A model generated the notes under the pieces. The model saw only the letters and a program-made list of their open reading frames with translations. It searched no databases and was not told the DNA's origin. From Candidatus Puniceispirillum marinum IMCC1322 (GTDB lineage: Bacteria > Pseudomonadota > Alphaproteobacteria > Puniceispirillales > Puniceispirillaceae), in NCBI RefSeq assembly GCF_000024465.1, contig NC_014010.1, positions 1,922,001 to 1,986,000 of the forward strand: a stretch of DNA of 64,000 bases, in the 5' to 3' direction. Positions within the stretch are counted from its first letter, which is position 1; every line of letters starts with the position of its first letter. The translations under genes and the position numbers were made by a program. Shown here in pieces: positions 20,201-60,923 of this stretch.

Positions 20201-23200
20201 GAGACAGCCGTCCTGGCAAACTCCAACGTTCCGTTTTCCCTGTCGTGGGGCCAAAAGAGTGCGGAAACAGTAAACTCCAGTTCAGCAAGGCCGTTCACCC
20301 CCTCGGCATCGAGATCGACACCCCTGCCAAGTTTGAGAACACCATCATTTCCGAGGCGCAACAGGTGCCGGTGTTTGCCGCCAAGTGTATAAAGTGTTCG
20401 TCCCGCCGATTCATCAGGGTCAAGATGGTCGCCATAACGCACTGTTCCGATAATGTGATAATCCTCGTCAGTTTCCGGCAGTGAAAACACGTAACCATTG
20501 TCCTTGAATACTCCGATCTCGGTGCTGTAGAAGCGGGCGTTCTGGCTCGGATGCTCGGTTTCTGGTGTAGTTGGTGGTGTAGTTGGTGGTGGGGTTGGAT
20601 TTGAAAGCGCGGGCTCGGTTACCGTGAATTGCTGTTGTGCCGATTTATAATCATTAGAATTGTTGTCACGAATAAGCACAATCAGAACATATGTTCCGGG
20701 TTTACTGGGTGTGAAAGATTTCGATCTGGACAATGGCCCACTATCGGCTTGGTCTGGCTGTGCATATAGATAATACCATACATAGCTGTAGTTGAGCGCG
20801 TTGACATCGGGATCATGAGCTTCAACCACCGCTGTAAGAGACGTGCCTGTTTGAACCGATCCGTTGGTGAGCCCTGTAATCGATAGGCCGTTCACGATTG
20901 TCGGTTCATCCGCATTGGTCAGCTGGATGGTGGTTGTTCGCGAAACTGAATTGTGGATTTCGTCGCGTGCGATGATCCACAGGGTGATTTCACCGTTTGG
21001 ATTATCCTGGCTCTCATAATCAAACTGCTTGCCTTTCTTGATAATCAGTTTGTCCTTTTGAACATCAAATCGGTCGTCAACCTGCCAGCGTCCTTTCTGC
21101 CAGCTTTTGATCACCAGTGAACTAAGGTTGTTATCGACATCACGTACTATCACCGCGATGCCCGTATCGATGTGTTGGGTTACTTCATTGCCAACGGTTT
21201 CGGTGATTTGTGTCTGTTGGGCAGGTAGCCGAATGGTGATGGTGGGCGATGAATCGGCCACGGTAATCGGCTCGCTGAAAAATCGCTCCACATTACCATC
21301 ATTATCCCGTATGTGCAGAATTGCCCGCCAGACGCCTGGTGCATTTGGAATGATTTTGGTGCCAGTCAAAAATGAAACACCTAGAGGATTCTCGCGCACC
21401 GAATACCAAGTGATCCATTGCGCGGCAATACTGTTTTCGCTACTGACTTCGGTGTGAGCTGTCAGCTGCTGACCGGTTAGCGGCGATTCCGAACTGGGGA
21501 CGATGCGAATGGAGCTTATGGTCGGCGCGATATTCGGCGGTGCTTGTAGTGGCGGCGCGGTGACCTCCATATTCTGGCTGTCGATTTCCTGTTGATTATC
21601 GTCATTGTCAACCACGATGGCGACAGCGCGATAGGTGCCGGCGGATGTGGGGGTGAAGCTGCTGCCCTCACCCACCTGAGTGCCGGCACCGTCACGCCAG
21701 ATAAAGGTCTTGCTCTTGATCCCGTCCTCATCGGCGATCGGGGTTGTCTCATGAACCGTCAGCACGGTGTTTGTATTCACGGCTCCCGACAGCTCCGTGC
21801 CATCGGCGGTGATGGCGATTACCCCCGTCGTCGCCTCATTCACGTTGGTCAGGGTGATTGTCACACGCTGTATCGCGCTGCGTGTTGCTGTCTCGTCGGT
21901 TGACGTTGCCGTCGCCGTAATCTCGATTTCATAGATGTTGTCGCGATCCGCATCGCGCGCGGTGTCATGATCCGATTTCGCCGTGAATGTCACAACGCCG
22001 GTTCTGGCGTCGATGTCGAATTTCCTGCCGTCCGTCCCGCCAGTGATGGCATAACTCACCGTACCCGCTGTCGCTGTCGCCTGCGCCGTATAGCCGGTGG
22101 TGGTGCTGCCTTCCGGGATGGAACGCGAGACTGTGCCGGTGCTGGCAAACTCTGGTACCGCCACATCGTTATCCGGATCATTGCGCACGGTCAGCGTGAA
22201 AGTCACCGGGGCAGGATTATCGCCGGTGCCGTTGCCGGTCGCCTGAATGGTTACGCTATGGGTGCCGACACTTAACTGGTCCAGCGTGACGCCGGATGCC
22301 AGATAAAGGTCATACTTTCCGTGCTGACCCGGACCCGCCACCGGCTCATATCTAAACAGGCCGCTGTCCGCCCCCGACAGCGTCAGACCAACCGTGCCAA
22401 GGCCGTCATCCTGAATCGTGATCCGCGCCAGCGCGCCGCCGGGGAGATCGCCACCCTCTTCAACCTGACGGGTTCTCTGACTCAACGACACACTGGTTGG
22501 CCTGGCGTTGGCGGGAACCACAGGCGACGCTTTTGGTGGCGGTGTTGACTCTGTCGGATCAAGCACTTCCTCTTGCGGACCCTGTTCAGGGTCTTCGGGC
22601 GCTTCCTCCGCTGTGCTGAATGACCTTTTCATCAAAATGGCAATCTGCTTGCGCATTTCAGCAACGATCTCCTGAAGGCCTCCTAATTTTGTCTCAATAT
22701 TTCTGATCGTTGAGGTGAGACTCTTGGCAATCTGCTTGATCTTTGCAATGTCCGCCGGTGTGATGTTGGTGGGCCTGCCATCCTCCAGCCAGGCGTTATG
22801 GTTGAGAGGGTCGTAACCATTTGGGGAACGCTCCTTGAGCGCCGCCTCAGTGGCATAACCCTGTACAACCGAATGCGAAAAGGCTGAAATAACCTTGGCG
22901 TTCGCGGGCGCTTTCAGAACCTCTGGCAAGGTGCCAGCATCCGTACCGTCAGGGTTTTTATGGACGACGCCCGCGGCACTGGTATGCGCTATTCGGATAT
23001 TGTTTTTCAGGCTGTCGGGAACAGAACCGCTGTAACGCCCTTGTGCATCGGTGCGGCCAATCAGATAATCCTCGCCCTCCTCCCAGATACCATCGCCATC
23101 ATCGGGATTGAGCTCACCATCACCATTGGCATCGACATAAACAGGCGCGTTTTGTACCGGCGGGTCAAAAACCGACCCGCTAGCCCTCGCAAACCCCTGC

Positions 23201-23436
23201 GTTCCGCCTGATGTTGTGGGGCCACCAGTGTCATCACCTTCCTTGCCAGGTGGTGCTCCCTCCGTTGTAAGGGCAGGTCCACCACCGCCGCCGCCGCAGG
23301 CAGCAAGGATCAGCGCCCAGAAAGACGCACCATAAGGCGTCAGGCTGGTGCTATACCGGCCTGATGGTAATAGGCTATAAGGGCGGTGTAAGCTTCGCTC
23401 AACCAACCCCTGGTTTGATTTGCGCGTTGCTATCAT
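17278..23436 (-). CDS. Giant lipoprotein with cadherin/Ig-like repeats and metzincin protease
   Basis: The 2052-residue protein has a type II signal: a positively charged N-region, then FWALILAAC with lipid-acceptor Cys47 and six glycines. A Ca-site-like DANGDGELNPDDGDG segment follows near residue 105, then Pro/Glu-rich linkers and a cadherin unit near 430-540. A module of about 365 residues is then repeated more than twice (about 740-1570). The C-terminus holds a zinc metalloprotease of the metzincin clan: HEIGHVLGLAH near 1959 and the Met-turn NSIMTYG about 37 residues later, then a serralysin-like NDINALQFLYG. I chose ATG 23436 because GGAAG lies at proper spacing. A TTG 42 bases upstream is the alternative. 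Membrane-tethered serralysin-like enzymes are unusual, since that family is normally secreted. Confidence 0.85.
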   Translation of the reverse strand: MIATRKSNQGLVERSLHRPYSLLPSGRYSTSLTPYGASFWALILAACGGGGGGPALTTEGAPPGKEGDDTGGPTTSGGTQGFARASGSVFDPPVQNAPVYVDANGDGELNPDDGDGIWEEGEDYLIGRTDAQGRYSGSVPDSLKNNIRIAHTSAAGVVHKNPDGTDAGTLPEVLKAPANAKVISAFSHSVVQGYATEAALKERSPNGYDPLNHNAWLEDGRPTNITPADIAKIKQIAKSLTSTIRNIETKLGGLQEIVAEMRKQIAILMKRSFSTAEEAPEDPEQGPQEEVLDPTESTPPPKASPVVPANARPTSVSLSQRTRQVEEGGDLPGGALARITIQDDGLGTVGLTLSGADSGLFRYEPVAGPGQHGKYDLYLASGVTLDQLSVGTHSVTIQATGNGTGDNPAPVTFTLTVRNDPDNDVAVPEFASTGTVSRSIPEGSTTTGYTAQATATAGTVSYAITGGTDGRKFDIDARTGVVTFTAKSDHDTARDADRDNIYEIEITATATSTDETATRSAIQRVTITLTNVNEATTGVIAITADGTELSGAVNTNTVLTVHETTPIADEDGIKSKTFIWRDGAGTQVGEGSSFTPTSAGTYRAVAIVVDNDDNQQEIDSQNMEVTAPPLQAPPNIAPTISSIRIVPSSESPLTGQQLTAHTEVSSENSIAAQWITWYSVRENPLGVSFLTGTKIIPNAPGVWRAILHIRDNDGNVERFFSEPITVADSSPTITIRLPAQQTQITETVGNEVTQHIDTGIAVIVRDVDNNLSSLVIKSWQKGRWQVDDRFDVQKDKLIIKKGKQFDYESQDNPNGEITLWIIARDEIHNSVSRTTTIQLTNADEPTIVNGLSITGLTNGSVQTGTSLTAVVEAHDPDVNALNYSYVWYYLYAQPDQADSGPLSRSKSFTPSKPGTYVLIVLIRDNNSNDYKSAQQQFTVTEPALSNPTPPPTTPPTTPETEHPSQNARFYSTEIGVFKDNGYVFSLPETDEDYHIIGTVRYGDHLDPDESAGRTLYTLGGKHRHLLRLGNDGVLKLGRGVDLDAEGVNGLAELEFTVSALFWPHDRENGTLEFARTAVSRVVIFDPLNPHSEPDSVTPAPPYIGIDGDQTMIRETVGDERTVSSRPTGISVITGDPNDDLDQIRIESQQDGRWQADDRFEVRNDTLFVKAGKQFDYEDLDNPNGEIALRITATDAAGNSVYRNLTIQLTNADEPIIVNSLSITGLSNGSVQTGTSLTAEIDAHDSDVSTLEYTYLWLHETRTEPVSRSQSFTPSTPGTYVLTVLIHDNNFNTHEWVRQEFTVTGSGTSNPTPSSSAPVTEYPGQNIRFFSTETGIFEDNAYVFSLPETVDDYHIIGKVRYGDHLNPNLSPGYTLYTLGGKHSHLLRLSSEGILFLGRDVDLDAEGVNGLAELQFTISALYFPNVRGAGNTTFSKTAVSKIVIFDPLDPEDVRQHAAPSKPPHITINDEHQAIMETVGDERTERSLNTGIRVLVIDPNHDLDQIRVESQRDGEWEVDERFALQNNQLIIRPDKQLDYEDPNNPNGVITLRITATDDAGHSVRRILTLQLTNADDPATGSVTVTGPASPRTGQALTATSRASDDDGIASQLVTWTRDGVPVTGDDGRPVTGNSVTPGVGEAGEWRAILTVTDSLGNTRSFTSDPVTVTTPAPPPPTPATRNLAREIHENHPLTKPIIDLDGTGVFTMAPAAGAPDNQFFRVDAATGKIWFVPYDPDGDGEQDPGDYHLLDAEDDRDVGGDGTYDLRLTRTAPDGTVETIDLALTVQDLPVVNAHGETVERTEATRGDSIGMVYHYLRMDSEVLKERIAGLIDDWFRDYRSGLTPQETATQTQYLKYLLDGEAWWTPPDGSTLHMSWSLNTKRLNSQQTIDAARAKVERALAEYETFLTIDFIEVAHNAHSLGALEFSINKNSGSSGGFASLVRWGGGVSTGLGIHISTYIHEIGHVLGLAHPFGYTDSSTHTGPPKQGHFGKTPDEENTSNSIMTYGPVEKSTITQNDINALQFLYGIPGTDYHGLYAEIEDWFDQPGHDVPIL
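18725..20935 (-). repeat. Two long in-gene duplications of about 1.1 kb
   Basis: Matching landmarks such as the QLTNADEP junction occur at about 18725, 19800 and 20910, spacings of about 1.08 and 1.11 kb. Each unit encodes an ETVGDE...FDYEDxDNPNGEI cadherin-like part, an Ig-like SITGLxNGSVQTGTSLTA part and a YxFSLPET...LYTLGGKH part. The copies have diverged to roughly similar but not identical protein, so this is an old internal duplication within the metalloprotease lipoprotein. Confidence 0.75.
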
Positions 23437-23635
23437 AATCTTCCAATGGCGGCACCTATGCCGCACTATTCGGTTCAACCTAATGCATAAGTTTTAACAA
23501 AACGTTAATTTTACCAATTTTTTTGCTGCATTCAGCCCAGCTAATCACGCCGGATGAACGACGGTTCAAGATGTTTGCGGCGGTTGTCAGATTATCCGCC
23601 AACTGAGCTGGCAATTATGCCTGTCGCGTTAATCT

Positions 23636-46633: not shown

Positions 46634-47603
46634 CATTTTATCTGCCGGCTTTGCGACAACAATTCAGGATATGGGACGTCCTGGATATTATCATCTTGGC
46701 ATCCCAATGGGCGGTGCGATGGATCGCTTTGCCCTGCGTTGCGCCAATCTTCTTGTAGGCAATAGTGAAGATGCGGCTGGTTTGGAATGCGTGTTCACAG
46801 GACCTGAAATTGAATTTACCTCGGATACGGTGATTGCTGTCACGGGTGCAAATTTGCCACCAAAGCGTGATGGAAAAGTGATGAAAACATGGACGGCGAT
46901 TCCATTTAAAGCGGGACAAATACTGTCGTTTGATTTTCTTAAGGCAGGTGCCCGCGCTTATGTGGCAATCGCCGGTGGTATCGATACGCCACCCATTCTG
47001 GATAGCCGGTCAACATATGGCATAGGCGCATTAGGTGGTATCGAGGGGCGCGCTGTCCAGACTGGCGACGCCTTACCCATCGGCACCGCAACATTGCCAG
47101 TGCATTTGGATACACGATCAATTCCTGCAACGATGCGACGGTCTGTAAAAACACCAACAGCACTTCGCGTGGTGCCAGGGTTATATTGGCATCGGCTGAC
47201 CAATGAATCGGGTGACCAGTTTTTTCAAGACCGGTGGAAAGTGGCTTCGGAAGCGGATCGCATGGGCTATCGGTTTGGTGGCGGATCGCCTCTGACCTTT
47301 GTCGAGCGCGAGCCTCCCTTTGGGGCAGGTTCAGAACCATCGAACATTACCGACGCCTGCTATCCCTACGGGTCGATACAGGTGCCAGGTGGCACCGAGC
47401 CCATTATCCTGCATCGCGATGCTGTATCAGGTGGTGGATACTGCATGGTGGGCACTGTCATATCGGCTGATATGGATCTTATTGGTCAGCTTGTTCCAGG
47501 TGATGAGGTGAATTTTGTGAAGGTAAACATGCATACGGCGCTCAAAGCACGACGGAGCCGAGCGGAGATGCTGGATACGGTTCGTCGTCATCTTAATGGA
47601 TAA
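46623..47603 (+). CDS. pxpC: PxpC/KipA-like carboxyltransferase-family subunit
   Basis: The 326-residue protein is of the allophanate hydrolase subunit 2/KipA family, with the opening AGFATTIQDMGRPGYYHLGI, then PMGGAMDRFALRCANLLVGN and VAIAGGIDTPPILDSRSTYG, all standard. In PxpABC it works with PxpB to phosphorylate the lactam. In urea carboxylase the homologous domains form the carboxyltransferase. The start overlaps pxpB by 11 bases. Confidence 0.9.
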   Translation: MSANILSAGFATTIQDMGRPGYYHLGIPMGGAMDRFALRCANLLVGNSEDAAGLECVFTGPEIEFTSDTVIAVTGANLPPKRDGKVMKTWTAIPFKAGQILSFDFLKAGARAYVAIAGGIDTPPILDSRSTYGIGALGGIEGRAVQTGDALPIGTATLPVHLDTRSIPATMRRSVKTPTALRVVPGLYWHRLTNESGDQFFQDRWKVASEADRMGYRFGGGSPLTFVEREPPFGAGSEPSNITDACYPYGSIQVPGGTEPIILHRDAVSGGGYCMVGTVISADMDLIGQLVPGDEVNFVKVNMHTALKARRSRAEMLDTVRRHLNG

Positions 47604-47628
47604 AGATCAAACAGAGGAGACATATAAA

Positions 47629-48228
47629 ATGGTTGCGAATGTTACATCATATCCCACACTTTTTGAGGCAATATGGCCTAAAACCAACTCATGGGGCGCA
47701 AAAGTCACCGTGGCGTTAGTTGGTAGTTTGGCACTATGGATGTCTGCCAAAATTCAGGTACCCTTTTATCCTGTTCCGCTGACGTTGCAAACAATGCTGG
47801 TACTTGCTCTTGGAGCGGCATTGGGGTGGCGGCTGGCCGGATTGACGATTTGTTTCTATCTTCTCGAAGGTGCCGTTGGATTACCCGTTTTTGCAGGCAC
47901 ACCTGAACGGGGCATTGGTCTGTTATATATGGCAGGACCAACAGGCGGGTTTCTGATCGGGTTTCTAGCAGCAGCGATGATGGTGGGGTATCTCGCACAA
48001 AGAGGATGGGATCGTCATATTCTGTCAATGACATTGGCGATGCTGATCGGAAATATAATCATTTACGGGTTTGGTCTGATATGGCTAGGCAACAGCCTTG
48101 GCTGGGACAAGCCAATTCTGGCATGGGGGTTTTATCCCTTCATCATTGGCGATTGTGCAAAAATTGTCATTGCGGCTATTGGCCTTCCTCTTATATGGCG
48201 CATGATGGGCCGGACATATTCACGGTGA
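47629..48228 (+). CDS. bioY: BioY biotin transporter S-component
   Basis: This 199-residue membrane protein has six hydrophobic segments and BioY motifs: AKIQVPFYPVPLTLQTM near the first loop, LEGAVGLPVFAG, and GPTGGFLIGF. BioY binds and imports biotin, alone or with an ECF module; no EcfA/T genes are near. ATG 47629 is preferred because GAGGAG lies nine bases before it. ATG 47596, 33 bases earlier, is possible. Being last in an operon with a biotin carboxylase and carrier, it would supply cofactor for them. Confidence 0.9.
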   Translation: MVANVTSYPTLFEAIWPKTNSWGAKVTVALVGSLALWMSAKIQVPFYPVPLTLQTMLVLALGAALGWRLAGLTICFYLLEGAVGLPVFAGTPERGIGLLYMAGPTGGFLIGFLAAAMMVGYLAQRGWDRHILSMTLAMLIGNIIIYGFGLIWLGNSLGWDKPILAWGFYPFIIGDCAKIVIAAIGLPLIWRMMGRTYSR

Positions 48229-48296: not shown

Positions 48297-48370
48297 GTCT
48301 TACAGCGTATGACCGGCGTCATAATCATGTCATATGTCAGTCACAGCGCATATGAAACGCATATGGGTTA
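48297..48370 (+). repeat. Repeat D, copy 2
   Basis: This matches 31870-31945, including TGAC/GTCA hairpin arms and the core CATATGAAACGCATATGG at 48349-48366. It lies between bioY and the integrase remnant, at the right-hand end of the 16-kb module. Confidence 0.65.
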
Positions 48371-48382
48371 TGTGATACGGGT

Positions 48383-48778
48383 TTGCATCAAAAGCAAAGC
48401 CAGAAATCAATAAAGGGTCAGGTCATCGAAAAGCCTGAATCCTTGTTGCCTTTACCGGGCTTTCGCATGGATTCCGTGCCGTCTCCCAGTAGTGGGGGGT
48501 ATAAATATCAAGCCGGATACGTCATTTTCATCGTTGCTCTCAAGCATAAAGGACGGCGTTTCAGCAAAACCATTGGCCATAACGGTTACACCATAACGGT
48601 GACACGAGCGTGGCCGAAGCGCGCGCGATTGCCGCCCAGATGATTGGCGATGTGAAAACGGGTCGCTGTCACAAACCGATCACGCCAAAGGAGCGGCGCT
48701 TCGAGGTGTTTGTAAAACATTTTGCAGGCGGAATGGTCAAAAACATCTGTATCTGTCAGATAGTAAAACAGCTCAGAT
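48383..48778 (+). pseudogene. Degraded integrase related to integrase 1
   Basis: Two pieces of the integrase 1 gene are recognisable. Bases 48512-48720 match about 2475-2690, covering the arm-binding domain (ALKHKGRRFSKTIGH), with a frameshift after it. Bases about 48730-48778 match about 3112-3160 around the catalytic Lys hairpin. About 430 bp between them are deleted, and the catalytic His-Arg-Tyr part is absent. The upstream portion 48366-48475 matches the scar at 32448-32560. This is a third trace of the same integrase family in the window. Confidence 0.8.
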
Positions 48779-49180
48779 GACCACCTCTATGGCGGCACCG
48801 GTAAAGACTGGATTTGATTTGGTGGTGATACATGCCTGAAAACGGTTCTGGCTGTCGGACAATTTCCGCATAATGATTATGCACTTTTCCAAACCTGTTG
48901 TTGATATTGCTGTGATGGATGCATGGGTAACACGCACCCTCGCCATGACCAAGCATGGGTATTAATCCGATGCGCGCATAAGAATAGGCGTATATAATCT
49001 ACATTGAGTATTAAATAACTCATTAAAAACAATGGGTTGACATGATTATGAATATTTGTCACTCTAAACTATATTTCAAGATTTTTCGATATTATGACCC
49101 CCTGCATGCTGTAGTGGCATGAATGAAATCGGAGCAGAATATTTGAAATAACAGTCCAAAAAAGCAACAGATAAGAGAAA
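48779..49180. other. Gene-free stretch upstream of the giant lipoprotein
   Basis: I see no gene here. The left part may be further decayed element sequence. From about 48970 it is AT-rich and probably holds the promoter of the downstream gene, but no convincing -35/-10 pair stands out. Confidence 0.4.
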
Positions 49181-49243
49181 ATGGATCGCGCCTATAAACC
49201 GGATTTTCCGTTTGGTGGATGCGAATCCGTAGCAAATATATGA
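49181..49243 (+). CDS. Possible 20-codon leader ORF coupled to the giant gene
   Basis: ATG at 49181 follows AAGAGA by four bases and opens a 20-codon frame (MDRAYKPDFPFGGCESVANI). Its TGA overlaps an in-frame ATG of the giant gene as ATGA at 49240-49243. This arrangement would couple translation of the long gene to the leader. There is no other evidence that it is expressed. Confidence 0.35.
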   Translation: MDRAYKPDFPFGGCESVANI

Positions 49244-52200
49244 AAAATTATAGACATGACAAAGAATTCGCTAATGATGAGAAATTAGCTGATACACCCC
49301 CTCTGGTAGTCACTATAAACACTCGGGCTATATCTGCTTTGGCGAGATATTCTTCGTCCGTTTTGTTTGGTTCTAAGCAACCAAAGATGATGAAGCAGGA
49401 TGCTGGCAGAGGCCTCATCTGGACATTATTGGCGATCGGGTTGGCGGCTTGTTCCGACAGATCAGTTTATGATAATAAAAAAACTGATACGCATGGCTAT
49501 GACGATGATCAATCCCAGATTCAGAATAGCGATGATCCTATCAGAGTGGCTGACGGGCCCATAGAAGGGGCGCTTGTCTATGGGCGACGGGCAGACGGGA
49601 GCTATAGCTCGTCACCACTTGGAAAAACCAATTCCAAAGGTGAGTTCACCCCTACATCTGCACAACGTGCCGAATTTGTCGGTTATAAATTTGATCTGAC
49701 AAATGCACGTGATGTGAATAGCGGAAAAGTATATGACAAGGGTGAACAATTAGAAACGCTGGATGATGGCGACATCGCAACGCCCCTGACCACATTGATA
49801 CGGGCTGCGCGAAAGATCGCTGAAACCGATGATGACAACACGACCACTGCTGAGAATGCGACAGAGCAAGTCATCCAAGGTCTTTTCGGTTCTGAGACAG
49901 ATGTAACACTCAAACAGATTCAAGATTTTGAGATTTATCGTGTTGGTGACCGGGATAATGAGATCGTCAAAAAGGCGGTACAGGTGATGGCCACGATCAC
50001 CAAGAAAATGGATGAATCGGGTGGTGCTTCAAGCGAAGCGGTGAATATCGTCAACAATATGGCTATGGCCGCGCAGAAAGTTGGTGCCAGCAAAGGCCAA
50101 GCGCGTGAGGACGCAGAGACCGAGCTCGGGCTTATTTCAGAAAATGATCCGGTCATTCAAGTTTTACTTAATAAGGTCCCAACCGGCGGGGTAACCATTA
50201 CCGGCACGCTGAGGGCTGGAGAGAGGCTGACGGCCGATTTTAGTGCGCTTCGGGATGCTGACGGGATACCGGACCAGGATAGTAGTGGCGGTCTGAGCGC
50301 GGATGATCTGACCTTTCAATGGAAGAAGGATGGCGTCGATATTGCCGGTGCGAGAGGTGAAAGCTATGTGCTGGCGGCTGATGATGTTGGCGGGCAGATA
50401 ACGGTAAAGGTATCCTGGCGGGATGCTGGTGGGACCGATGAGAGCGTGACCTCAACACCGACCGCGGCTATCACCGCAGCTAATCAAGCCCCAACCGGCG
50501 GGGTAACCATTACCGGCACGCTGAGGGCTGGAGAGAGGCTGACGGCCGATTTTAGTGCGCTTCGGGATCGTGACGGGATACCGGACCAGGATAGTAGTGG
50601 CGATCTGAGCGCGGATGATCTGACCTTTCAATGGAAGAAGGGTGGCGTCGATATTGCCGGTGCGAGAGGTGCCAGCTATGTGCTGGCGGCTGATGATGTT
50701 GGCGGGCAGATAACGGTAAAGGTATCCTGGCGGGATGCTGGTGGGACCGATGAGAGCGTGACCTCAACACCGACCACGGCTATCACCGCAGCTAATCAAG
50801 TCCCAACCGGCGGGGTAACCATTACCGGCACGCTGAGGGCTGGAGAGAGGCTGACGGCCGATTTTAGTGCGCTTCGGGATGCTGACGGGATACCGGACCA
50901 GGATAGTAGTGGCGGTCTGAGCGCGGATGATCTGACCTTTCAATGGAAGAAGGATGGCGTCGATATTGCCGGTGCGAGAGGTGCCAGCTATGAGCTGACG
51001 GCTGATGATGTTGGCGGGCAGATAACGGTAAAGGTATCCTGGCGGGATGCTGGTGGGACCGATGAGAGCGTGACCTCAACACCGACCACGGCTATCACCG
51101 CAGCTAATCAAGCCCCAACCGGCGGGGTAACCATTACCGGCACGCTGAGGGCTGGAGAGAGGCTGACGGCCGATTTTAGTGCGCTTCGGGATGCTGACGG
51201 GATACCGGACCAGGATAGTAGTGGCGGTCTGAGCGCGGATGATCTGACCTTTCAATGGAAGAAGGATGGCGTCGATATTGCCGGTGCGAGAGGTGAAAGC
51301 TATGTGCTGGCGGCTGATGATGTTGGCGGGCAGATAACGGTAAAGGTATCCTGGCGGGATGCTGGTGGGACCGATGAGAGCGTGACCTCAACACCGACCA
51401 CGGCTATCACCGCAGCTAATCAAGCCCCAACCGGCGGGGTAACCATTACCGGCACGCTGAGGGCTGGAGAGAGGCTGACGGCCGATTTTAGTGCGCTTCA
51501 GGATCGTGACGGGATACCGGACCAGGATAGTAGTGGCGGTCTGAGCGCGGATGATCTGACCTTTCAATGGAAGAAGGATGGCGTCGATATTGCCGGTGCG
51601 AGAGGTGCCAGCTATGAGCTGACGGCTGATGATGTTGGCGGGCAGATAACGGTAAAGGTATCCTGGCGGGATGCTGGTGGGACCGATGAGAGCGTGACCT
51701 CAACACCGACCACGGCTATCACCGCAGCTAATCAAGCCCCAACCGGCGGGGTAACCATTACCGGCACGCTGAGGGCTGGAGAGAGGCTGACGGCCGATTT
51801 TAGTGCGCTTCGGGATGCTGACGGGATACCGGACCAGGATAGTAGTGGCGGTCTGAGCGCGGATGATCTGACCTTTCAATGGAAGAAGGATGGCGTCGAT
51901 ATTGCCGGTGCGAGAGGTGCCAGCTATGAGCTGACGGCTGATGATGTTGGCGGGCAGATAACGGTAAAGGTATCCTGGCGGGATGCTGGTGGGACCGATG
52001 AGAGCGTGACCTCAACACCGACCACGGCTATCACCGCAGCTAATCAAGCCCCAACCGGCGGGGTAACCATTACCGGCACGCTGAGGGCTGGAGAGAGGCT
52101 GACGGCCGATTTTAGTGCGCTTCAGGATCGTGACGGGATACCGGACCAGGATAGTAGTGGCGGTCTGAGCGCGGATGATCTGACCTTTCAATGGAAGAAG

Positions 52201-55200
52201 GGTGGCGTCGATATTGCCGGTGCGAGAGGTGCCAGCTATGTGCTGGCGGCTGATGATGTTGGCGGGCAGATAACGGTAAAGGTATCCTGGCGGGATGCTG
52301 GTGGGACCGATGAGAGCGTGACCTCAACACCGACCACGGCTATCACCGCAGCTAATCAAGTCCCAACCGGCGGGGTAACCATTACCGGCACGCTGAGGGC
52401 TGGAGAGAGGCTGACGGCCGATTTTAGTGCGCTTCAGGATCGTGACGGGATACCGGACCAGGATAGTAGTGGCGATCTGAGCGCGGATGATCTGACCTTT
52501 CAATGGAAGAAGGATGGCGTCGATATTGCCGGTGCGAGAGGTGCCAGCTATGAGCTGACGGCTGATGATGTTGGCGGGCAGATAACGGTAAAGGTATCCT
52601 GGCGGGATGCTGGTGGGACCGATGAGAGCGTGACCTCAACACCGACCGCGGCTATCACCGCAGCTGCTGAACCCAGCACTCCACCGGCGAATACGGGACC
52701 AACTATTTTGCTTTATATGACAGAAACGCCGGTTCTGAGACATACACAGTCCGAGGCGGCTGACACGGGCTTTATTGTCAGTACGACTGACCCAGATGAA
52801 GGCGATGAAGTCACCTTGTTGGTTAGCGATGAGAGATTTGAGATTGTGAATGGTAGCCTGCGAATCAAAGCCAACCAGACCTTTGATTTTGCAAATGAAC
52901 CAATCATTAGAGTGACAATTACCGCCACAGATCGGAGTGGGACGCCCGACAGGCAGGTTGTCTATGTTATGGCTCCTGAAGAAACCTTACCCAGCCCGGC
53001 ACTCTATACCAAAGAAAGGGATGTGACGGTTCCCGATCTCGCCATATCGGGTGATTTTACGATTGAAGGTTGGATGTATTTTACGACTCGTGGCAATGCA
53101 ATTTCTGATCGAACCGATGGGATGTTCAGGGGGGTGACCGCTTCGGGTGAGAAGATCACGTTGAATTTTCTTGACAATAAGGCGCGGCTATTTATCGGCG
53201 CTAATGCAATGAATCACCTCAAGGCCACAGCAGACGTGAAAGGACAACCACCGGTATATAACCCTGAAAATGACTATGTTGTTTCAAAAAAGGTGGTTGC
53301 TGTGTCGCAGTGGCTGCATTTTGCGCTGGTACGCGAAAATGGCGCTTTGAGGCTCTATCAGGATGGTGAACTGGTCAGTGAAGTCTTGACGACTAAAATG
53401 TGGAGCGCTGATTTTACCCTCAAGCAGATTGCCAAAGGGTGGACCAACGATAGCGGCCTGAATGGGCAGATGGATGAATTTCGGGTATGGAACATGGCAC
53501 GTACTGAAACAGATATTCAGGACAATATGCGTTCGCGTGTCGATCCATCTGATGTTGATTTGTTACGTTATTATAAATTTGATAAGCCGGGTGTTATCAA
53601 GGATTCGATTACGCATGGAACACCGGCTGCAGATGTGACTTTGCCTACCCGTGATGAGGACCTAAAAATTGGTGGTAGTAACGATGCTGAAATTCTGAAC
53701 CCAATCGAAATTGACAATCAGGGGTTTGAGGCGCCAATCCAGATAGGGCTTGTTGATGACGAAATTCCGTTGGATAAATGGGTGTTCACCGGCGAGTCAG
53801 GTACGTTTATGCCCCCAGCTGATGATCTTAACAACGGTGCGCCCGAGGGCCACAATGTGGCATATATCAATGGGCGCGGAGAGATTTCACAAACACTTTC
53901 GACGCTTCTTACGCGGGCAGACGGCGTGCGTTATCTTGATTATGTGCTGAAGCTGACGCTTGGTGATTCCAGTGCAGATATTGGCGATGCTGCCAGTTGG
54001 GAAGTGGCACTTTATGCTGGTGACACGCTGATAGGGCGGTTGACCAGTCAAGATGTGCGATTGAGTAGCGGGACTGTGTCCGAAGCGGTGCTGGTCGTTG
54101 ATGCCGCACGGCTTTACAAACTCAGCCTTCATAAAGCTGTTTATGGACAGAAGCTGAAAATCGTTCTGCGTGACTCAGGTGATTCCGAGGGGTGGATCAG
54201 ATTTGACGATGTACAACTTTATTCACGTGCGTCTAATTTTACGCCACGCCTTGATGACAGTGACGGTGACGGGATACCCAAGATACCCAAATTAAGTATC
54301 GGCGACAGCATCATGCTGGATTTTCAGGCTGCGGCAAAAGCGATTGGTGATAATCCCGCACCAGTCACATCACAATGGGATCCAGATGGCGTGAATGGAC
54401 CAAACGGAAATGTCTGGAATCCTTTTACCATTGGCCCAGGTCACACTTATGGTAGCACATGGACAGCAAAAAAGATTGAAGGTGATGGGATCAGAGTCGC
54501 GAATCTGAAAACAAGTCATGGCATTGTAACGAAGGTAGGTTTGAAAATCACTGGCAAGATAGGTGCTTATAATTCTGGTAGCAACCCGCGACCCAATCCG
54601 AATCATATTGATTCCCTAATCCTAGACCATCATTATTTTGATCTAAAAGGTTTTAAAGCTTATGGCGATAAACGTGTCGCGCCCGATGGCGCGGAAATAA
54701 CTGGTAAAGAAACACATAGCACGCCCTGGATACCCGGAAGCCAATGGGTGCCAACTAATAACAATTGGGGTGCGCGTGGGCCAGTGACCTATAGCTATAC
54801 GAATCTACAGCCAGGTATTTATTCGCTCGAATTCTTTATTAACTCCACAGCACATGCGCCCCCGCGTGAATATATGGTCAATATCAACGGTGAGACCGAA
54901 GCAGGCGGAACAACGTTGAAATGGGTGACAGTGACATCAGAGGTCACTAATCCAGCTCATGGTCGTGGCGCCGCTGATGCCGACAATCGGATTACGGTTA
55001 ATAATGTTGAGGTCGGCCAGGATGGTCAACTTACCCTCAGATATAAGGGGCCAAACGACGCGCAGGGTTCAGATCCCAGTCCGGCCGGAATCATTCTGAC
55101 ATACACAGGAAGGCCGGAAACGCCAAGTGGACAAACCCCTGAACAGGTTGAAGACGCGCGTGCCGCCGAGGCGGATATCACCGACATTCCGCCAGAATCA

Positions 55201-58200
55201 CGTTTTAGCTCCGAGCTGGTGATCCCTGCACTTGATGGTGCGACCGATCTTGAGTTTCTGCCATCCAACATGCCAGGCAAGGAGCATCTGCAGAACAGCC
55301 TGCTGGTCGTGACGCTGGGTGGCAAAGTTTTGAAATATGGTAACCCAAGCGCGGGTGACATTGCCGTGCAAACTGTTCTTGAGATTCCTAGTGCAAATAT
55401 TCTGACTAAGAGTGGCGAACGTGGCCTGTTCGCTATTGAGATAGATCCATCATTCAATCAGAATGGATTTTTCTATCTGATGTATACAAAAGCTGTTGGC
55501 AATGGAAAGCATCTGACCACTGTATCGCGCTTTACCTATAGTGAAACGGAAGAAAGAACGCCAGATAGCGCCAGTATTCTGAGTAGTGAAACGGTTTTGT
55601 GGCAGGAACATGATCCTAATTTTGTGGACAATTATGCACACCAGGGTGGTGGTCTTGCCATCGGCTGGAGTCCAAGCGATGGTAGGGCGAAGCCAGAAAT
55701 TCTGACCGCTGATGATCGCCAGCATTTTAAGATTTTTATCACTACAGGCGAAGAATTTCAGGAGAAAAATTCCCGCAATCTGGGGCATTCAGACGGCAAG
55801 ACACATCGGATCAATCTTGATGGGTCGATCCCCAGTGATAATCCCTATTATGATGCAGATGTGGCAGGTAAATACGACATCAGCAATCCGGCCTCAGCAA
55901 TCGCGAGAACCACATCGGGCACTGTGACCTATGCGATCTCGGATGGAGCGGATAAGGATAAATTCGACATTAATGTCAACACCGGTGTCGTGACCTTCAA
56001 AACGAATTCGGATTTTGACAGCCGGGCTGATGCCGACCAAGACAATATCTATGTCATCAAAGTCCGGGCGACCATAGTGGATGGTTCATATACCGAAAGT
56101 ATAGAGCAGACGGTATCGATCAAGCTAAGTAAAAGCGTTGTCAAGCCCCCGAGTTTTGAGAATAGCGATCCGGTCATTGTTCCCGTCTTGGAAGGTACCA
56201 CCGATACCGACTATACAGCGAGTCACCTCTCGGAAATTCTTGAGAAGCGATTGATGACCATCTGGTCCTATGGATTGCGTAATCCGTGGCGGGCTTGGTT
56301 TGATGATGAAACGGGCATGTTGTTTATCGGCGAGGTCGGTGGCAATAACAATAACGCGGGAAAATCAACCGAGGATATCCATATTGCCTATAAGAATGCC
56401 GATCATGGTTGGATAGGGGATGGCTCGGAAACAACTTTTAATAAAAATGATGGTGGAACGCCACTGTATCTCTATTCTCATTTTAACGGACCGGGACGAG
56501 ATGGTAACATTCTGAATGGCCCTGCCGGTGCCTCGATCACGGGTGGGGTGGTGTATCGGTATAAAGGCGATGGTGAATTCAAGTTTCCAGACGAATATCA
56601 AGGTCGCTATATGTATGGTGACTGGATACGGACTGTGATTCATTCATTAAAGCTGGAACCTGTGGCATCGCCAGTGGCTGGTGGTCATAAAATGAAAGTG
56701 GCTGAAATTAAGGGCGACCAGTTTATGACTAATATGGCTGGTAGGCCATTGGCGATGACAGTTGGGCCGGACGGCGCGCTATATGTCATTACAACGCATC
56801 AGGTAGGTGGTATTTTCGATTTCACCAGCCGTATATTTCGGGTGGTTTTTGGCAATAATTTACCACTTACGGGCACAGGGATTGTTATAGGTGAGGAGCA
56901 AAAGGAATCCGACACAGCCCCACATACTGTAACCTTTACCGCCGATGTCGAGGATCCAGATGGGGCAGATTCGCAACTACGCTATAAATGGTACTTTGAT
57001 CATGGAGGGGACAATAGTCTGGTGGCAGAAGGGCGCCAGGTAACGTATACATATACCAGCCTTGGGGTGTATGATGTGTTGCTTGAAGTTACCGATTTCA
57101 GGGGCAAAGTGACGCGCTTTGAGACCCGCAAAATCAAGATCGGAAAGCGTCCAGAAGTGAGTTTTAGCGAGATCAAGGAAGAAGGTTTGGAAACAAATAT
57201 TCAACCTGATGACTCAACATACCGATTCAAGGCGGGACATGAAGTGCGCCTGAAAGCCACCGCTATTGACCCTGATCTTCCTATTGGTAATCAAAGTTTG
57301 GATTCATCTGACATCAGATGGTCGTCGCAGCTGAAGCATAATGAGCATTCGCATCCCGGAGGTGACGGCGTGATGGATAAGGATGGCTATATCATCTTTT
57401 TCATCCCAAACACAGGGCATGGTTATCCTGGCCCCACCTATTACAGAGTCACGCCATCGATACGCGATGGTTCCGGGATGACCGGATACAATCCATATAA
57501 TTTGAAGGTTAAAAAAACCACACTCGAGCTGGTCGCACCTGGCGATGATTATCAGTTCCTACGCCTTAAATCGCCAGATAATCCCAGTTCCGGATCGCAT
57601 AGGTTTAGTGATGTTGCTGTCGGATTTCTCGATGTGTTTGTGGCACAACCTTTCTATATTGACGGTTTGACAAGGCGTGTATTCTCGCATTGGAAAATCA
57701 ATGGCGTTGATGAAAGGCAAAAGAACAATCCGGTTTTGCTCTATCAAATACCAGATCAAGCCAACTTAAGTTTAGAACCAATTTATGTGCTGGCCAATTC
57801 AGACCGATATTATCTGAGGCTAGATGGGACTACACCTGTATCTCTTGGAAATCAGCCCATTGAACTAAGCGGGGACTTCACCATTGAGATGCAGGTGAGT
57901 ATTGATGAGCCTTTGAACAATAATGACTCACTTTTATTTGGAACAATTACAGACGGTGGAGCACCCAAAACCTTTGATATGAATTTCTACCAGCAACTGT
58001 TTCGCATTTATGACGGTATAAACCATGCCGTGGTGACACAGAAAGTTGAGGCCAATACATGGTTTCATATCGCGCTTGTCAGGCAGAACGACACCATTAC
58101 CGTTTATCTGGATGGAGTGCCCATTAATGCCACAGGCCGTTTAAGTTGGGTCGGAAATGTGACGGTTACGCATATAGGCAAGTCAATTTCGTCGTCACAG

Positions 58201-59601
58201 GATTTCATGGGTAAGATGGATAATATCAGATTCTGGAATACCGCCCGATCCCAGCAACAGATTAATGAAAATAAAGAAAGGGATGTAGAGGCAGACGAAA
58301 ATGGGTTGTTACGTAAATATAGCTTTGATAGCGATTCGAGTCGTATAGTTGACGATACCAATAATTCAAGACCACTTCCCCTTTTTTCGGATGGATCCAT
58401 ATCGATAGACCCTCCTAGAGGGGGTTCTAACGTATTCAAATACTTTCATTTTGATGGTACGAGAGGCATTGATATTCCCGACTGGCAGGTTGCAGCAGAC
58501 CAGGATTTTACCATGGAAACATGGGTTAGGGTTTCCACGCCGCTGTCACCGGTGGATGGCGTATTCTGGGGATTCAAGGATGACTCAAATACAAATTTAG
58601 CAGTCCTTATTAATGCGCGGTGGTGGCGATTTAGGGATCTGGAGTACGCGGAGACGAACCATGGTGATATTGTTAGTGCGGGTAAACCTTTTGAAAAAAA
58701 TCAGTGGGTACATATCGCCCTGACACGCGAAAGTGGTGTTCTTAAACAATATATCAATGGTGAATATTCTGTTTGGAGTAATTTACAAAATAATTCTTGG
58801 ACAGATGCTTTCACGATCACAGATATAGGCAAAGGTTTTTATAATGGCTTCTTTGAAGGTGACCTCTATAACATTCGTTTCTGGAATACAGCCCGAAATG
58901 CAAACCAGATAAAGCAAAATAAACATAGGGAACTGGAAAACGAAGATGGTTTAGCTCGCCAGTACCGTTTTGATAAAGCCAACCATAGAATAATCGATGT
59001 GACCGAAAATGAAAATTCCGAAAACCGCGCCATATCTTTGCCAAGGGATGAGAAAGAAACAGCTTCATCACCACATATTGGTCTGGTCAGAAGCAATGGC
59101 GAGCCACTTACGACCGCAGAAAATCGTCCACCTGTGCCGGTGCCAGACTTTAAGGCTGTACCACACGATACTCCCGCGTTGATTGGTGTTACGGGAAACG
59201 ATGCCGACGACAAGACCCTAGCCAAGAATCTTATTTTACTTGATTATCATCGTATTGAGATCATCAGTGATGATCGCACGCCGGCACAAAAAGAATCTGG
59301 AACCAATGTGGGCAACGTCACAATCGATACGGCAAATAAGAATGTTACCTTTACGCCACAGAATAATTTTCACGGTAAGGTAAAGATTTTTTACAAAATC
59401 ACCGATGCCGATGGTGCAGAAGCGGAAGGCTATATTATGATAAGGGTTGGTGCGCCCCCACCTGATCAGGATTCCAGCCCAGGTGAGGATGCACATAATA
59501 GTGGTAGTTCGGAGTTACTGCCAAGTGTTTCTCCGCTTGTCGAGATGCAGTTCAGTATGCAAGATATGGCGTTGCAAGATATGGCGTTGGACGTTATGTA
59601 G
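49240..59601 (+). CDS. Giant multidomain surface lipoprotein
   Basis: The protein has about 3,450 residues. ATG 49240 overlaps the short leader; 49219 and 49387 are alternative starts, the last giving a compact lipoprotein signal (lipobox LAAC). Counting from 49219: lipid Cys78; a conserved N-terminal region to 315; eight 104-residue Ig-like repeats at about 320-1151; a LamG domain at 1257-1480; a carbohydrate-binding-like jelly roll near 1500-1670; and a glucose/sorbosone-dehydrogenase propeller in two halves (about 1996-2224 and 2343-2547). A cadherin-like segment splits the halves. Then come a PKD domain (about 2554-2647), two more LamG domains (about 2874-3044 and 3074-3260) and a terminal cadherin-like unit. 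It is probably an outer-membrane-anchored adhesin or sugar-processing protein. Whether the propeller still binds PQQ is unknown. Confidence 0.88.
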   Translation: MKNYRHDKEFANDEKLADTPPLVVTINTRAISALARYSSSVLFGSKQPKMMKQDAGRGLIWTLLAIGLAACSDRSVYDNKKTDTHGYDDDQSQIQNSDDPIRVADGPIEGALVYGRRADGSYSSSPLGKTNSKGEFTPTSAQRAEFVGYKFDLTNARDVNSGKVYDKGEQLETLDDGDIATPLTTLIRAARKIAETDDDNTTTAENATEQVIQGLFGSETDVTLKQIQDFEIYRVGDRDNEIVKKAVQVMATITKKMDESGGASSEAVNIVNNMAMAAQKVGASKGQAREDAETELGLISENDPVIQVLLNKVPTGGVTITGTLRAGERLTADFSALRDADGIPDQDSSGGLSADDLTFQWKKDGVDIAGARGESYVLAADDVGGQITVKVSWRDAGGTDESVTSTPTAAITAANQAPTGGVTITGTLRAGERLTADFSALRDRDGIPDQDSSGDLSADDLTFQWKKGGVDIAGARGASYVLAADDVGGQITVKVSWRDAGGTDESVTSTPTTAITAANQVPTGGVTITGTLRAGERLTADFSALRDADGIPDQDSSGGLSADDLTFQWKKDGVDIAGARGASYELTADDVGGQITVKVSWRDAGGTDESVTSTPTTAITAANQAPTGGVTITGTLRAGERLTADFSALRDADGIPDQDSSGGLSADDLTFQWKKDGVDIAGARGESYVLAADDVGGQITVKVSWRDAGGTDESVTSTPTTAITAANQAPTGGVTITGTLRAGERLTADFSALQDRDGIPDQDSSGGLSADDLTFQWKKDGVDIAGARGASYELTADDVGGQITVKVSWRDAGGTDESVTSTPTTAITAANQAPTGGVTITGTLRAGERLTADFSALRDADGIPDQDSSGGLSADDLTFQWKKDGVDIAGARGASYELTADDVGGQITVKVSWRDAGGTDESVTSTPTTAITAANQAPTGGVTITGTLRAGERLTADFSALQDRDGIPDQDSSGGLSADDLTFQWKKGGVDIAGARGASYVLAADDVGGQITVKVSWRDAGGTDESVTSTPTTAITAANQVPTGGVTITGTLRAGERLTADFSALQDRDGIPDQDSSGDLSADDLTFQWKKDGVDIAGARGASYELTADDVGGQITVKVSWRDAGGTDESVTSTPTAAITAAAEPSTPPANTGPTILLYMTETPVLRHTQSEAADTGFIVSTTDPDEGDEVTLLVSDERFEIVNGSLRIKANQTFDFANEPIIRVTITATDRSGTPDRQVVYVMAPEETLPSPALYTKERDVTVPDLAISGDFTIEGWMYFTTRGNAISDRTDGMFRGVTASGEKITLNFLDNKARLFIGANAMNHLKATADVKGQPPVYNPENDYVVSKKVVAVSQWLHFALVRENGALRLYQDGELVSEVLTTKMWSADFTLKQIAKGWTNDSGLNGQMDEFRVWNMARTETDIQDNMRSRVDPSDVDLLRYYKFDKPGVIKDSITHGTPAADVTLPTRDEDLKIGGSNDAEILNPIEIDNQGFEAPIQIGLVDDEIPLDKWVFTGESGTFMPPADDLNNGAPEGHNVAYINGRGEISQTLSTLLTRADGVRYLDYVLKLTLGDSSADIGDAASWEVALYAGDTLIGRLTSQDVRLSSGTVSEAVLVVDAARLYKLSLHKAVYGQKLKIVLRDSGDSEGWIRFDDVQLYSRASNFTPRLDDSDGDGIPKIPKLSIGDSIMLDFQAAAKAIGDNPAPVTSQWDPDGVNGPNGNVWNPFTIGPGHTYGSTWTAKKIEGDGIRVANLKTSHGIVTKVGLKITGKIGAYNSGSNPRPNPNHIDSLILDHHYFDLKGFKAYGDKRVAPDGAEITGKETHSTPWIPGSQWVPTNNNWGARGPVTYSYTNLQPGIYSLEFFINSTAHAPPREYMVNINGETEAGGTTLKWVTVTSEVTNPAHGRGAADADNRITVNNVEVGQDGQLTLRYKGPNDAQGSDPSPAGIILTYTGRPETPSGQTPEQVEDARAAEADITDIPPESRFSSELVIPALDGATDLEFLPSNMPGKEHLQNSLLVVTLGGKVLKYGNPSAGDIAVQTVLEIPSANILTKSGERGLFAIEIDPSFNQNGFFYLMYTKAVGNGKHLTTVSRFTYSETEERTPDSASILSSETVLWQEHDPNFVDNYAHQGGGLAIGWSPSDGRAKPEILTADDRQHFKIFITTGEEFQEKNSRNLGHSDGKTHRINLDGSIPSDNPYYDADVAGKYDISNPASAIARTTSGTVTYAISDGADKDKFDINVNTGVVTFKTNSDFDSRADADQDNIYVIKVRATIVDGSYTESIEQTVSIKLSKSVVKPPSFENSDPVIVPVLEGTTDTDYTASHLSEILEKRLMTIWSYGLRNPWRAWFDDETGMLFIGEVGGNNNNAGKSTEDIHIAYKNADHGWIGDGSETTFNKNDGGTPLYLYSHFNGPGRDGNILNGPAGASITGGVVYRYKGDGEFKFPDEYQGRYMYGDWIRTVIHSLKLEPVASPVAGGHKMKVAEIKGDQFMTNMAGRPLAMTVGPDGALYVITTHQVGGIFDFTSRIFRVVFGNNLPLTGTGIVIGEEQKESDTAPHTVTFTADVEDPDGADSQLRYKWYFDHGGDNSLVAEGRQVTYTYTSLGVYDVLLEVTDFRGKVTRFETRKIKIGKRPEVSFSEIKEEGLETNIQPDDSTYRFKAGHEVRLKATAIDPDLPIGNQSLDSSDIRWSSQLKHNEHSHPGGDGVMDKDGYIIFFIPNTGHGYPGPTYYRVTPSIRDGSGMTGYNPYNLKVKKTTLELVAPGDDYQFLRLKSPDNPSSGSHRFSDVAVGFLDVFVAQPFYIDGLTRRVFSHWKINGVDERQKNNPVLLYQIPDQANLSLEPIYVLANSDRYYLRLDGTTPVSLGNQPIELSGDFTIEMQVSIDEPLNNNDSLLFGTITDGGAPKTFDMNFYQQLFRIYDGINHAVVTQKVEANTWFHIALVRQNDTITVYLDGVPINATGRLSWVGNVTVTHIGKSISSSQDFMGKMDNIRFWNTARSQQQINENKERDVEADENGLLRKYSFDSDSSRIVDDTNNSRPLPLFSDGSISIDPPRGGSNVFKYFHFDGTRGIDIPDWQVAADQDFTMETWVRVSTPLSPVDGVFWGFKDDSNTNLAVLINARWWRFRDLEYAETNHGDIVSAGKPFEKNQWVHIALTRESGVLKQYINGEYSVWSNLQNNSWTDAFTITDIGKGFYNGFFEGDLYNIRFWNTARNANQIKQNKHRELENEDGLARQYRFDKANHRIIDVTENENSENRAISLPRDEKETASSPHIGLVRSNGEPLTTAENRPPVPVPDFKAVPHDTPALIGVTGNDADDKTLAKNLILLDYHRIEIISDDRTPAQKESGTNVGNVTIDTANKNVTFTPQNNFHGKVKIFYKITDADGAEAEGYIMIRVGAPPPDQDSSPGEDAHNSGSSELLPSVSPLVEMQFSMQDMALQDMALDVM
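50176..52671 (+). repeat. Eight tandem 312-bp repeats
   Basis: Eight units in exact 312-bp register begin at 50176, 50488, 50800, 51112, 51424, 51736, 52048 and 52360. Each encodes a 104-residue Ig-like domain starting PTGGVTITGTLRAGERLTAD. They are almost identical even at silent positions. Differences are confined to a few codon choices (RDADG/RDRDG/QDRDG, SSGG/SSGD, KKDG/KKGG, RGES/RGAS, YVLA/YELT, PTAA/PTTA) shuffled between copies. That is the pattern of recent expansion or gene conversion. The array length is likely to vary between strains. Confidence 0.97.
55891..56245 (+). other. Cadherin-like insertion within the dehydrogenase propeller
   Basis: Between the propeller halves (ending near NPYYDADVAGKYD and resuming at IWSYGLRNPWRAWFDDETG) lies a segment with TVTYAISDGADKDKFDINVN and DNIYVIKVRATI, typical of the cadherin-like repeats in the metalloprotease lipoprotein at 17.3-23.4 kb. 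The parts appear in permuted order: the body of the repeat comes first, and its usual opening (PVLEGTTDTDYTAS) comes last, just before the propeller resumes. Confidence 0.6.
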
Positions 59602-60089: not shown

Positions 60090-60923
60090 TTAAGGTTTTA
60101 GATCGCTGAATTCTTTTGTGCGCGCGGTGATTGCCAGTTCGGTGGGTAGCCGTTCCATACTGCTGGCACCATAAAATCCATGGCATTCAGAACAAAGAGC
60201 TAGAAATTTCCGAACGTCCTGCGGTTCTGCCAGAGGGCCACCATGCGCGATCAGGATGATATCGGAACGGATGCTTAACGCCGCCTCGGCCCAGTCATTG
60301 AAATGTGCGGCGCATGCCTCAATCGAGCTGGTATCCACCGCGCCAATGGTGCCCCCAGCTGTCAAACCAAAATGGGGGACGACGATATCGGCACCTGCTT
60401 CTGTCATCGCGATGACTTCTTCTTTGGTGAAGGCATAGGGTGTTGTGAGAAGATCTTTCTTATGGGCGCGGGCAATCATGTCGATTTCAGCATCATAACC
60501 CATGCCAGTAGCTTCTAAAGAGGCACGAAAAGCCCCATCAATCAGCCCCATTGTGGGAAAATTCTGGACGCCAGCAAAGCCGATTTGCTTAATCTCATCC
60601 AGGAAGGGATCAATCAATAAAAAGGGATCGGTCGCATTGACGCCCGCCAGAACCGGAACATGATGCACCACCGGCAATACCTCTTTGGCCATTTCCATAA
60701 CGATTTCATTAGCATTGCCATAGGCCATATAGCCCGCAAGTGATCCCCGCCCCGCCATGCGATAGCGACCAGAATTATAAATGACAATCAGATCAGCGCC
60801 GCCAGCCTCCTCGCAACGTGCCGACAGGCCAGTGCCAGCACCCCCGCCAATAATTAACTGCTTATCGGTAATTTTTGCACGCAAACGTTTCAGGATGCTG
60901 GCGCGGTCATTTTTTTGAGACAT
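60090..60923 (-). CDS. PEP-hydrolase-like TIM-barrel protein (Tm-1 C-terminal type)
   Basis: The 277-residue TIM barrel is of the phosphoenolpyruvate hydrolase-like family. Visible signatures are [20 protein letters not shown] with [20 protein letters not shown], then [19 protein letters not shown] and [13 protein letters not shown]. In tomato Tm-1 and fungal relatives this domain is fused behind the UPF0261 domain encoded by the neighbouring gene. Here they are separate genes 14 bases apart. Its reaction in bacteria is not established. Confidence 0.85.

Follow-up and report, generated by a model that had tools for sequence, protein, structure and literature searches.

A recently homogenised array of eight immunoglobulin-like units in a giant, probable surface protein of Candidatus Puniceispirillum marinum

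How does a bacterial gene come to carry eight nearly interchangeable copies of a 312-bp coding unit, and what keeps them alike? The question is raised by a stretch of 64,000 nucleotides of Candidatus Puniceispirillum marinum IMCC1322, a marine alphaproteobacterium of the SAR116 group (assembly GCF_000024465.1, contig NC_014010.1, forward-strand positions 1,922,001 to 1,986,000), here called the window and numbered from its first letter, in which a giant open reading frame (ORF) contains the tandem array. An initial annotation, made without database searches, had ascribed the array to recent expansion with gene conversion in the stalk of a surface protein and had likened the stalk, whose length it expected might vary quickly, to phase-variable adhesins. 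The array is real, well formed and recently homogenised, and it adds a clean further example to a known adhesin-stalk pattern. We favour, with a probability of about 0.8, the reading that it makes up an eight-domain immunoglobulin (Ig)-like spacer in a giant surface protein, its units having multiplied recently, or been kept alike, by homologous recombination between the copies.

The array and its units

Tandem Repeats Finder (TRF) places a 312-bp unit 8.0 times between 50178 and 52665, with a 98% match and 0% indels, which upholds the initial count of eight near-identical repeats; the coordinates originally given, 50176-52671, take in the same 2,496 bases one codon off the coding register, which runs from 50179 to 52674. 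In that register the array is eight units of 312 bp (104 codons, 104 amino acids) in one ORF:

50179-50490, + strand, predicted Ig-like unit 1
50491-50802, + strand, predicted Ig-like unit 2
50803-51114, + strand, predicted Ig-like unit 3, identical to unit 6
51115-51426, + strand, predicted Ig-like unit 4, 1 base from unit 1
51427-51738, + strand, predicted Ig-like unit 5
51739-52050, + strand, predicted Ig-like unit 6, identical to unit 3
52051-52362, + strand, predicted Ig-like unit 7, 2 bases from unit 2
52363-52674, + strand, predicted Ig-like unit 8, array edge, most diverged copy

Mean nucleotide identity among the eight units is 0.982. Only 15 of the 312 positions vary; they fall in 11 codons, and all 11 of these codons carry replacements and none a silent change. 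Silent codon differences are absent from every one of the 28 pairs of copies, so that the remark in the initial annotation that the units match even at silent sites holds without exception, as does the agreement that it saw between copies 3 and 6 (0 of 312 bases different). Four differences, at positions 303, 304, 306 and 309 of the unit (counted from 0), are confined to copy 8 at the array's edge; through them codons 102 and 103 become variable, and codon 104, which is Ala or Val in copies 1-7, reads Pro in that copy. Codons 102 and 103 are accordingly excluded from the count of internal variable codons, which is nine (25, 27, 38, 51, 61, 64, 66, 96 and 104), and codon 104 is also excluded from the linkage tests, which use eight sites. 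The variants at codons 27 and 61 are separated by a change of two neighbouring bases. At codon 96 the first and last copies have Ala and the six between them Thr, a pattern to be expected if homogenisation is strongest among inner copies. The array ends abruptly: the adjoining 312-bp blocks have 213 and 221 mismatches to the consensus, and a DNA search (E ≤ 0.001) finds no further copy of the unit in the single-contig genome of 2,753,527 bp.

Exchange between copies

The variants are distributed as mosaics, as had been claimed. Of the 28 pairs formed by the eight variable sites, 15 show all four combinations and thus fail the four-gamete test, close to the mean of 17.0 obtained when alleles are shuffled freely, and the minimum number of recombination events (Rmin) is 3. 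Within a unit, linkage between sites, measured as r-squared, is weaker the farther apart they lie (rho -0.59, permutation P 0.0022), also when one of two fully linked sites is removed (rho -0.52, P 0.006). The order of the copies carries some further information: on a quarter (10,080) of the permutations, units three apart have the smallest mean difference (P 0.022 for this lag alone, 0.072 as the best of lags 1-4), which suggests that block duplication may also have contributed; the difference between units four apart is unusually large (P 0.019). Neighbours (lag 1) are not more unlike than other copies (P 0.32).

Silent and replacement change in related arrays

Comparators were collected by running a profile of the unit on loci of related genomes and plasmids. 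In a first set, of six other arrays with three or more copies, codons for the same residue are written identically 43-66% of the time on average, as against 100% in the window array. A broader set of 25 rows takes in arrays of two or more copies, the window included and single-unit ORFs left out. Its other 24 rows are not 24 independent arrays, since the loci L087, L089 and L095 contribute two rows each (the values for L089 being equal), and partial rows, among them L042 and the shorter ORF of L087, are included. The mean proportion of silent differences (pS) is 0.003 in the window array, the lowest of the 25 rows, and 0.132-0.779 in the rest; the window value departs from zero solely through the averaging over paths of the two-base change at codon 61. 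The ratio of replacement to silent differences (pN/pS) is 8.9 in the window array and 0.24-0.77 elsewhere. The replacement-only variants are mildly unusual; the array is otherwise ordinary in kind.

One comparator, L038 (1-9267), from a relative in the same class, contains 19 such Ig units, arranged for the most part as an alternation of two: the shared fraction of bases is 0.75 or more in 13 of 17 next-but-one pairs and 0.55-0.77 in adjacent pairs.

The protein that carries the array

The array lies near the N terminus of a very large predicted protein, whose other parts are these:

49219-59601, + strand, host ORF of the array, 3,460 amino acids
49441-49452, + strand, lipobox LAAC with Cys78, the sole cysteine of the protein
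49453-50178, + strand, N-terminal domain, from the lipobox to the array
53023-53520, + strand, Laminin_G_3, best of three stretches in the protein (Pfam)
53701-54219, + strand, HpiC1-like domain (Pfam)
55369-55860, + strand, GSDH (glucose/sorbosone dehydrogenase-like) stretch, best of two (Pfam)
55909-56127, + strand, cadherin match just after the first GSDH stretch (Pfam)
56902-57135, + strand, PKD domain (Pfam)
59122-59439, + strand, Big_9 (bacterial Ig) close to the C terminus (Pfam)

The true start is likely to be one of the paired ATGs at 49387 and 49390; a start near 49387 would give the protein a signal-peptide-like stretch of lipoprotein type ahead of the lipobox. Since its one cysteine is that of the lipobox, the product is probably a lipid-anchored surface protein, with laminin G (LamG)- and sugar-dehydrogenase-like modules beyond the array. 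In the Pfam scan, which lists 13 families at E ≤ 0.1, the LamG, GSDH, PKD, cadherin and Big_9 matches are all C-terminal to the array. PF00353 (RTX) is not among these matches and the motif GGxGxDx[LIVFY] does not occur in the protein, so that secretion like that of the Marinomonas primoryensis ice-binding adhesin (MpAFP) is not indicated. With the lipobox N-terminal, the LamG/GSDH-like modules C-terminal and RTX repeats absent from the scan, we infer that the array is a membrane-proximal Ig stalk or spacer. The initial suggestion of a surface-protein stalk is a reasonable one, given the Ig-like fold, the single lipobox cysteine, and LamG and other modules of extracellular type.

At 55369-56800 (+ strand) an inserted cadherin domain may interrupt a propeller of sugar-dehydrogenase-like type: GSDH is matched in two stretches, cadherin at residues 2231-2303 and DUF7133 at residues 2455-2525.

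Fold of the unit

The units are predicted to be Ig-like domains. An AlphaFold model of three units, built on an alignment of 16 stretches (three from the window and 13 overlapping ones from L016-L019), has beta-sandwich repeats with a mean pLDDT of 86.6 and a pTM of 0.55; the weakest part is a loop around an insert, where blocks of pLDDT 59-60 are found. This insert, residues 31-41 of the unit, is 11 residues long with several Asp, corresponds to a gap in most aligned relatives and may resemble the Asp-rich loops that bind calcium. Among solved structures the SCAB1 Ig domain matches best (4dix, Z 11.2, rmsd 2.0 over 82 aligned residues), and the Marinomonas RII repeats, which calcium stabilises, are also matched (4p99, Z 9.0, rmsd 9.4 over 254 residues); families outside the listing of this fold comparison are not excluded by it. 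A profile search of sequences in the PDB retrieves Ig domains of phage tail and decoration proteins (9c2d, E 3.7e-13; 5lxk, E 7e-4), and the RII domain is not among its matches up to E 5.

Origin and maintenance of the array

That no silent differences remain, that two copies are identical and that the variants form a mosaic is attributed to homologous recombination between units, and recent expansion or homogenisation with recombination, as initially proposed, is well supported by the silent identity, the mosaicism and the 24-row comparison. Unequal crossing-over together with short conversion tracts within the array would have removed silent differences and left some nine replacement variants in mosaic combinations. 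Units would be gained and lost in frame, 104 codons at a time, the stalk being lengthened or shortened by whole domains, and a change in its length may alter the reach of the LamG/GSDH-like part. The likeness to phase-variable adhesins does not survive this consideration: 312 being a multiple of three, the protein would change in length without the gene being switched off, and phase variation in the on/off sense is ruled out on frame. Several points tell against the favoured account as a whole. Its recombination statistics are small-sample ones (8 copies by 8 sites); one strain has been sampled, so that copy number may be fixed and ongoing length change, like surface anchoring and the spacer role, is something that we infer; the number of copies is taken from an assembly, and the longest exact repeat in the array, 413 bp, exceeds short reads. 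The lipoprotein assignment is a prediction by motif and leaves the crossing of the outer membrane unexplained, and at a pTM of 0.55 the predicted model does not establish a straight rod.

The array might also have arisen in a single recent burst of duplication, partly in three-unit blocks, followed by a few point mutations and no exchange. Copies 1 and 4 and copies 3 and 6, each three units apart and nearly or wholly identical, are what such a burst would leave, and the lag-3 likeness and lag-4 unlikeness point the same way. Block duplication would, however, also pair copies 2 and 5, which differ at 6 positions; no tree accommodates 15 of the 28 site pairs, linkage falls off along the unit, and the two variable codons with two adjacent base changes are unlikely to have recurred. 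We regard a burst without exchange as improbable. A still smaller chance is given to an assembly artefact, in which the true number of units is not eight or their order is scrambled. Exact repeats of up to 413 bp do defeat short reads, and collapse of repeats in assemblies is described in the available part of a review (PMC6868369). Yet at eight of the nine internal variants each state occurs in two or more copies, which is not the mark of scattered read errors, and since variable sites along the array are at most 90 bases apart, reads longer than ~413 bases could in principle order the units.

That diversifying selection keeps replacement variants in an array homogenised by recombination would add to the favoured explanation and not replace it. 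The pressure might come from exposure of the surface to phages or grazers, or from avoidance of misfolding between identical neighbours. The nine internal replacements without a silent change, and a pN/pS above that of every comparator row, speak for selection, as do Fisher tests of the window array's 0:9 silent-to-replacement count against the closest pairs of other arrays: P is 3.1e-7 for L038, 1.4e-5 for L016, 0.003-0.052 for nine further arrays and 0.011-0.044 for L093, a young array from Salipiger whose four closest pairs give 3:1, 3:3, 4:2 and 4:3. These tests, however, compare nine codons pooled over the array with one pair of copies at a time; in the Azoarcus array L096 the closest pair likewise gives 0:3 (P 1), and for L042 the count is 3:7 (P 0.12). 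Under neutrality the chance of nine replacements in nine is 0.04-0.06 by simple count and 0.08-0.12 if each of the two double changes is treated as one event, so that drift in a young array suffices. Neither are the variant positions significantly more variable in relatives (P 0.22, a trend only, with 7 of 9 scorable), and the anti-misfolding pattern is not seen, adjacent copies being no more unlike than others. Either constraint on the units is weak or the array is too recent for it to be visible; positive selection on the replacement variants is possible, and its upkeep of them an unlikely addition, though one to be borne in mind. Somewhat more doubtful is a broader picture of opposing forces, in which recombination wipes out silent differences while selection keeps replacements, and the stalk is a reshuffled surface code and not only an adjustable spacer. 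A diversity-generating retroelement, whose variants are confined to adenine positions, is ruled out, since the variants here are not so limited.

Relation to known systems

The closest parallel in general design is with the Periscope Proteins (SasG, Rib, Sgo_0707 and CdrA among them), which are presented, in the accessible text of two papers (PMC8201768, PMC9704523), as single-chain surface proteins with highly identical tandem folded domains of about 50-165 residues, commonly Ig-like, with homologous recombination as the proposed mechanism. The window protein is likewise a single chain with tandem, highly identical, predicted Ig-like domains of more than 50 residues, for which change of length by whole domains is proposed. 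It differs in that its predicted anchor is N-terminal, a lipobox, whereas theirs is a C-terminal sortase attachment; its genome lies outside the NCTC strain collection that defined the class, and Periscope repeat number varies among strains, whereas the window array is known from one.

Region II of MpAFP offers a parallel in unit length. In the available portions of PMC3492233 and PMC4083281 it is described as about 120 tandem 312-bp, 104-residue Ig-like units, identical in DNA except for the final one (one base), in a protein with RTX-like repeats and with calcium at the linkers; the authors of the former suggest recent expansion by duplication and unequal recombination. Unit length, an Ig-like fold (here a predicted one) and occurrence in a giant Gram-negative protein are shared; the window array differs in having 8 copies, 98% alike, with replacement variants, and no RTX match. 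As modelled, the likeness of the unit to RII is one of fold only, and the shared 312 bp is no evidence of common descent.

A further likeness is to the ZirU family, in the neighbourhood of the Pfam domains IG_AIR9 and SCAB-Ig: NCBIfam ZirU_fam (NF040485) matches the whole protein in 8 stretches with 167.7 bits, above the cut-off of 100, which would signify domain likeness and not orthology. Of four relatives that were scanned, three have matches to IG_AIR9 and SCAB-Ig, whereas the unit of the window array, taken by itself, matches nothing in Pfam at E ≤ 0.1 and has the 11-residue insert. For selection within a homogenised array there is precedent in the vls cassettes of Borrelia, where diversifying selection is reported, in the accessible part of PMC3828179, to be detectable despite concerted evolution.

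Among the papers listed under the organism's name no title or abstract opening concerns the array; the available main text of PMC11813361 lacks the terms adhesin, cadherin, repeat, Ig-like and surface protein, and that of PMC8547437 lacks surface protein, giant and genomic island. An array of this sort in a free-living ocean bacterium would make the role of length variation approachable without host immunity. Should the replacement-only pattern hold in more strains, it would help to tell a role as spacer from one in recognition.

Distribution and genomic surroundings

The family set comprises 61 genomes, only the window's own belonging to its genus. No orthologue with the unit, the N-terminal domain or the C-terminal part is found in the 60 others, an absence that is not firm because many of these genomes are incomplete (28 of the 61 reach 90% completeness with no more than 5% contamination). 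Singly, the unit has a match (E ≤ 1e-5) in four of the 61, namely its own genome and three in which a single weak match has 38-40% identity; the C-terminal part is matched in two (E ≤ 1e-10), its own and another by the cadherin stretch only, and the N-terminal domain in its own alone (E ≤ 1e-5). Genome contigs hold at least five loci with a unit match, none of 91 candidate stretches on viral contigs has one, and three phage records match at 33-39%. The domain is found, the window included, in 6 of 385 genomes of the class (E ≤ 1e-8) and 8 of 398 of the phylum (E ≤ 1e-12), and on 14 plasmid records, among them Salipiger, Sulfitobacter, Rhizobium, Azoarcus and Pseudoalteromonas. The distribution is scattered.

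The surroundings of the array look lineage-specific too, because a PEP-hydrolase-like gene at 60090-60923 is likewise missing from the 60 other family genomes (E ≤ 1e-40). The G+C content of the array is 59%, that of the rest of the gene 47-48%, the excess lying mainly at codon positions 1 and 2. G+C at third positions (GC3) is 0.56, a value reached by 41% of 312-bp windows in 27 other ORFs; imported DNA was dropped as an explanation, the array's GC3 being ordinary for the window.

Upstream of the gene, at 48356-48840 (+ strand), are broken frames that by eye resemble integrase remnants, the three open pieces having no Pfam match at E ≤ 1. They are preceded by a BioY gene (47596-48228, + strand); BioY is matched in 49 of the 61 family genomes (E ≤ 1e-20), and this copy looks like a paralogue, because the second match in its own genome has 49% identity and those in other genomes 44-56%. 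Farther away, a 1,581-residue ORF (12437-17182, + strand) has five cadherin stretches, no cysteine and an older, diverged array of its own (13110-14736; TRF 5.0 units of 324 bp, 74% match, GC3 0.79). Next to it on the opposite strand (17278-23478, -), a 2,066-residue ORF is a putative second giant lipoprotein: it matches cadherin and Y_Y_Y, and its LAAC, which resembles a lipobox, has six glycines directly after it.

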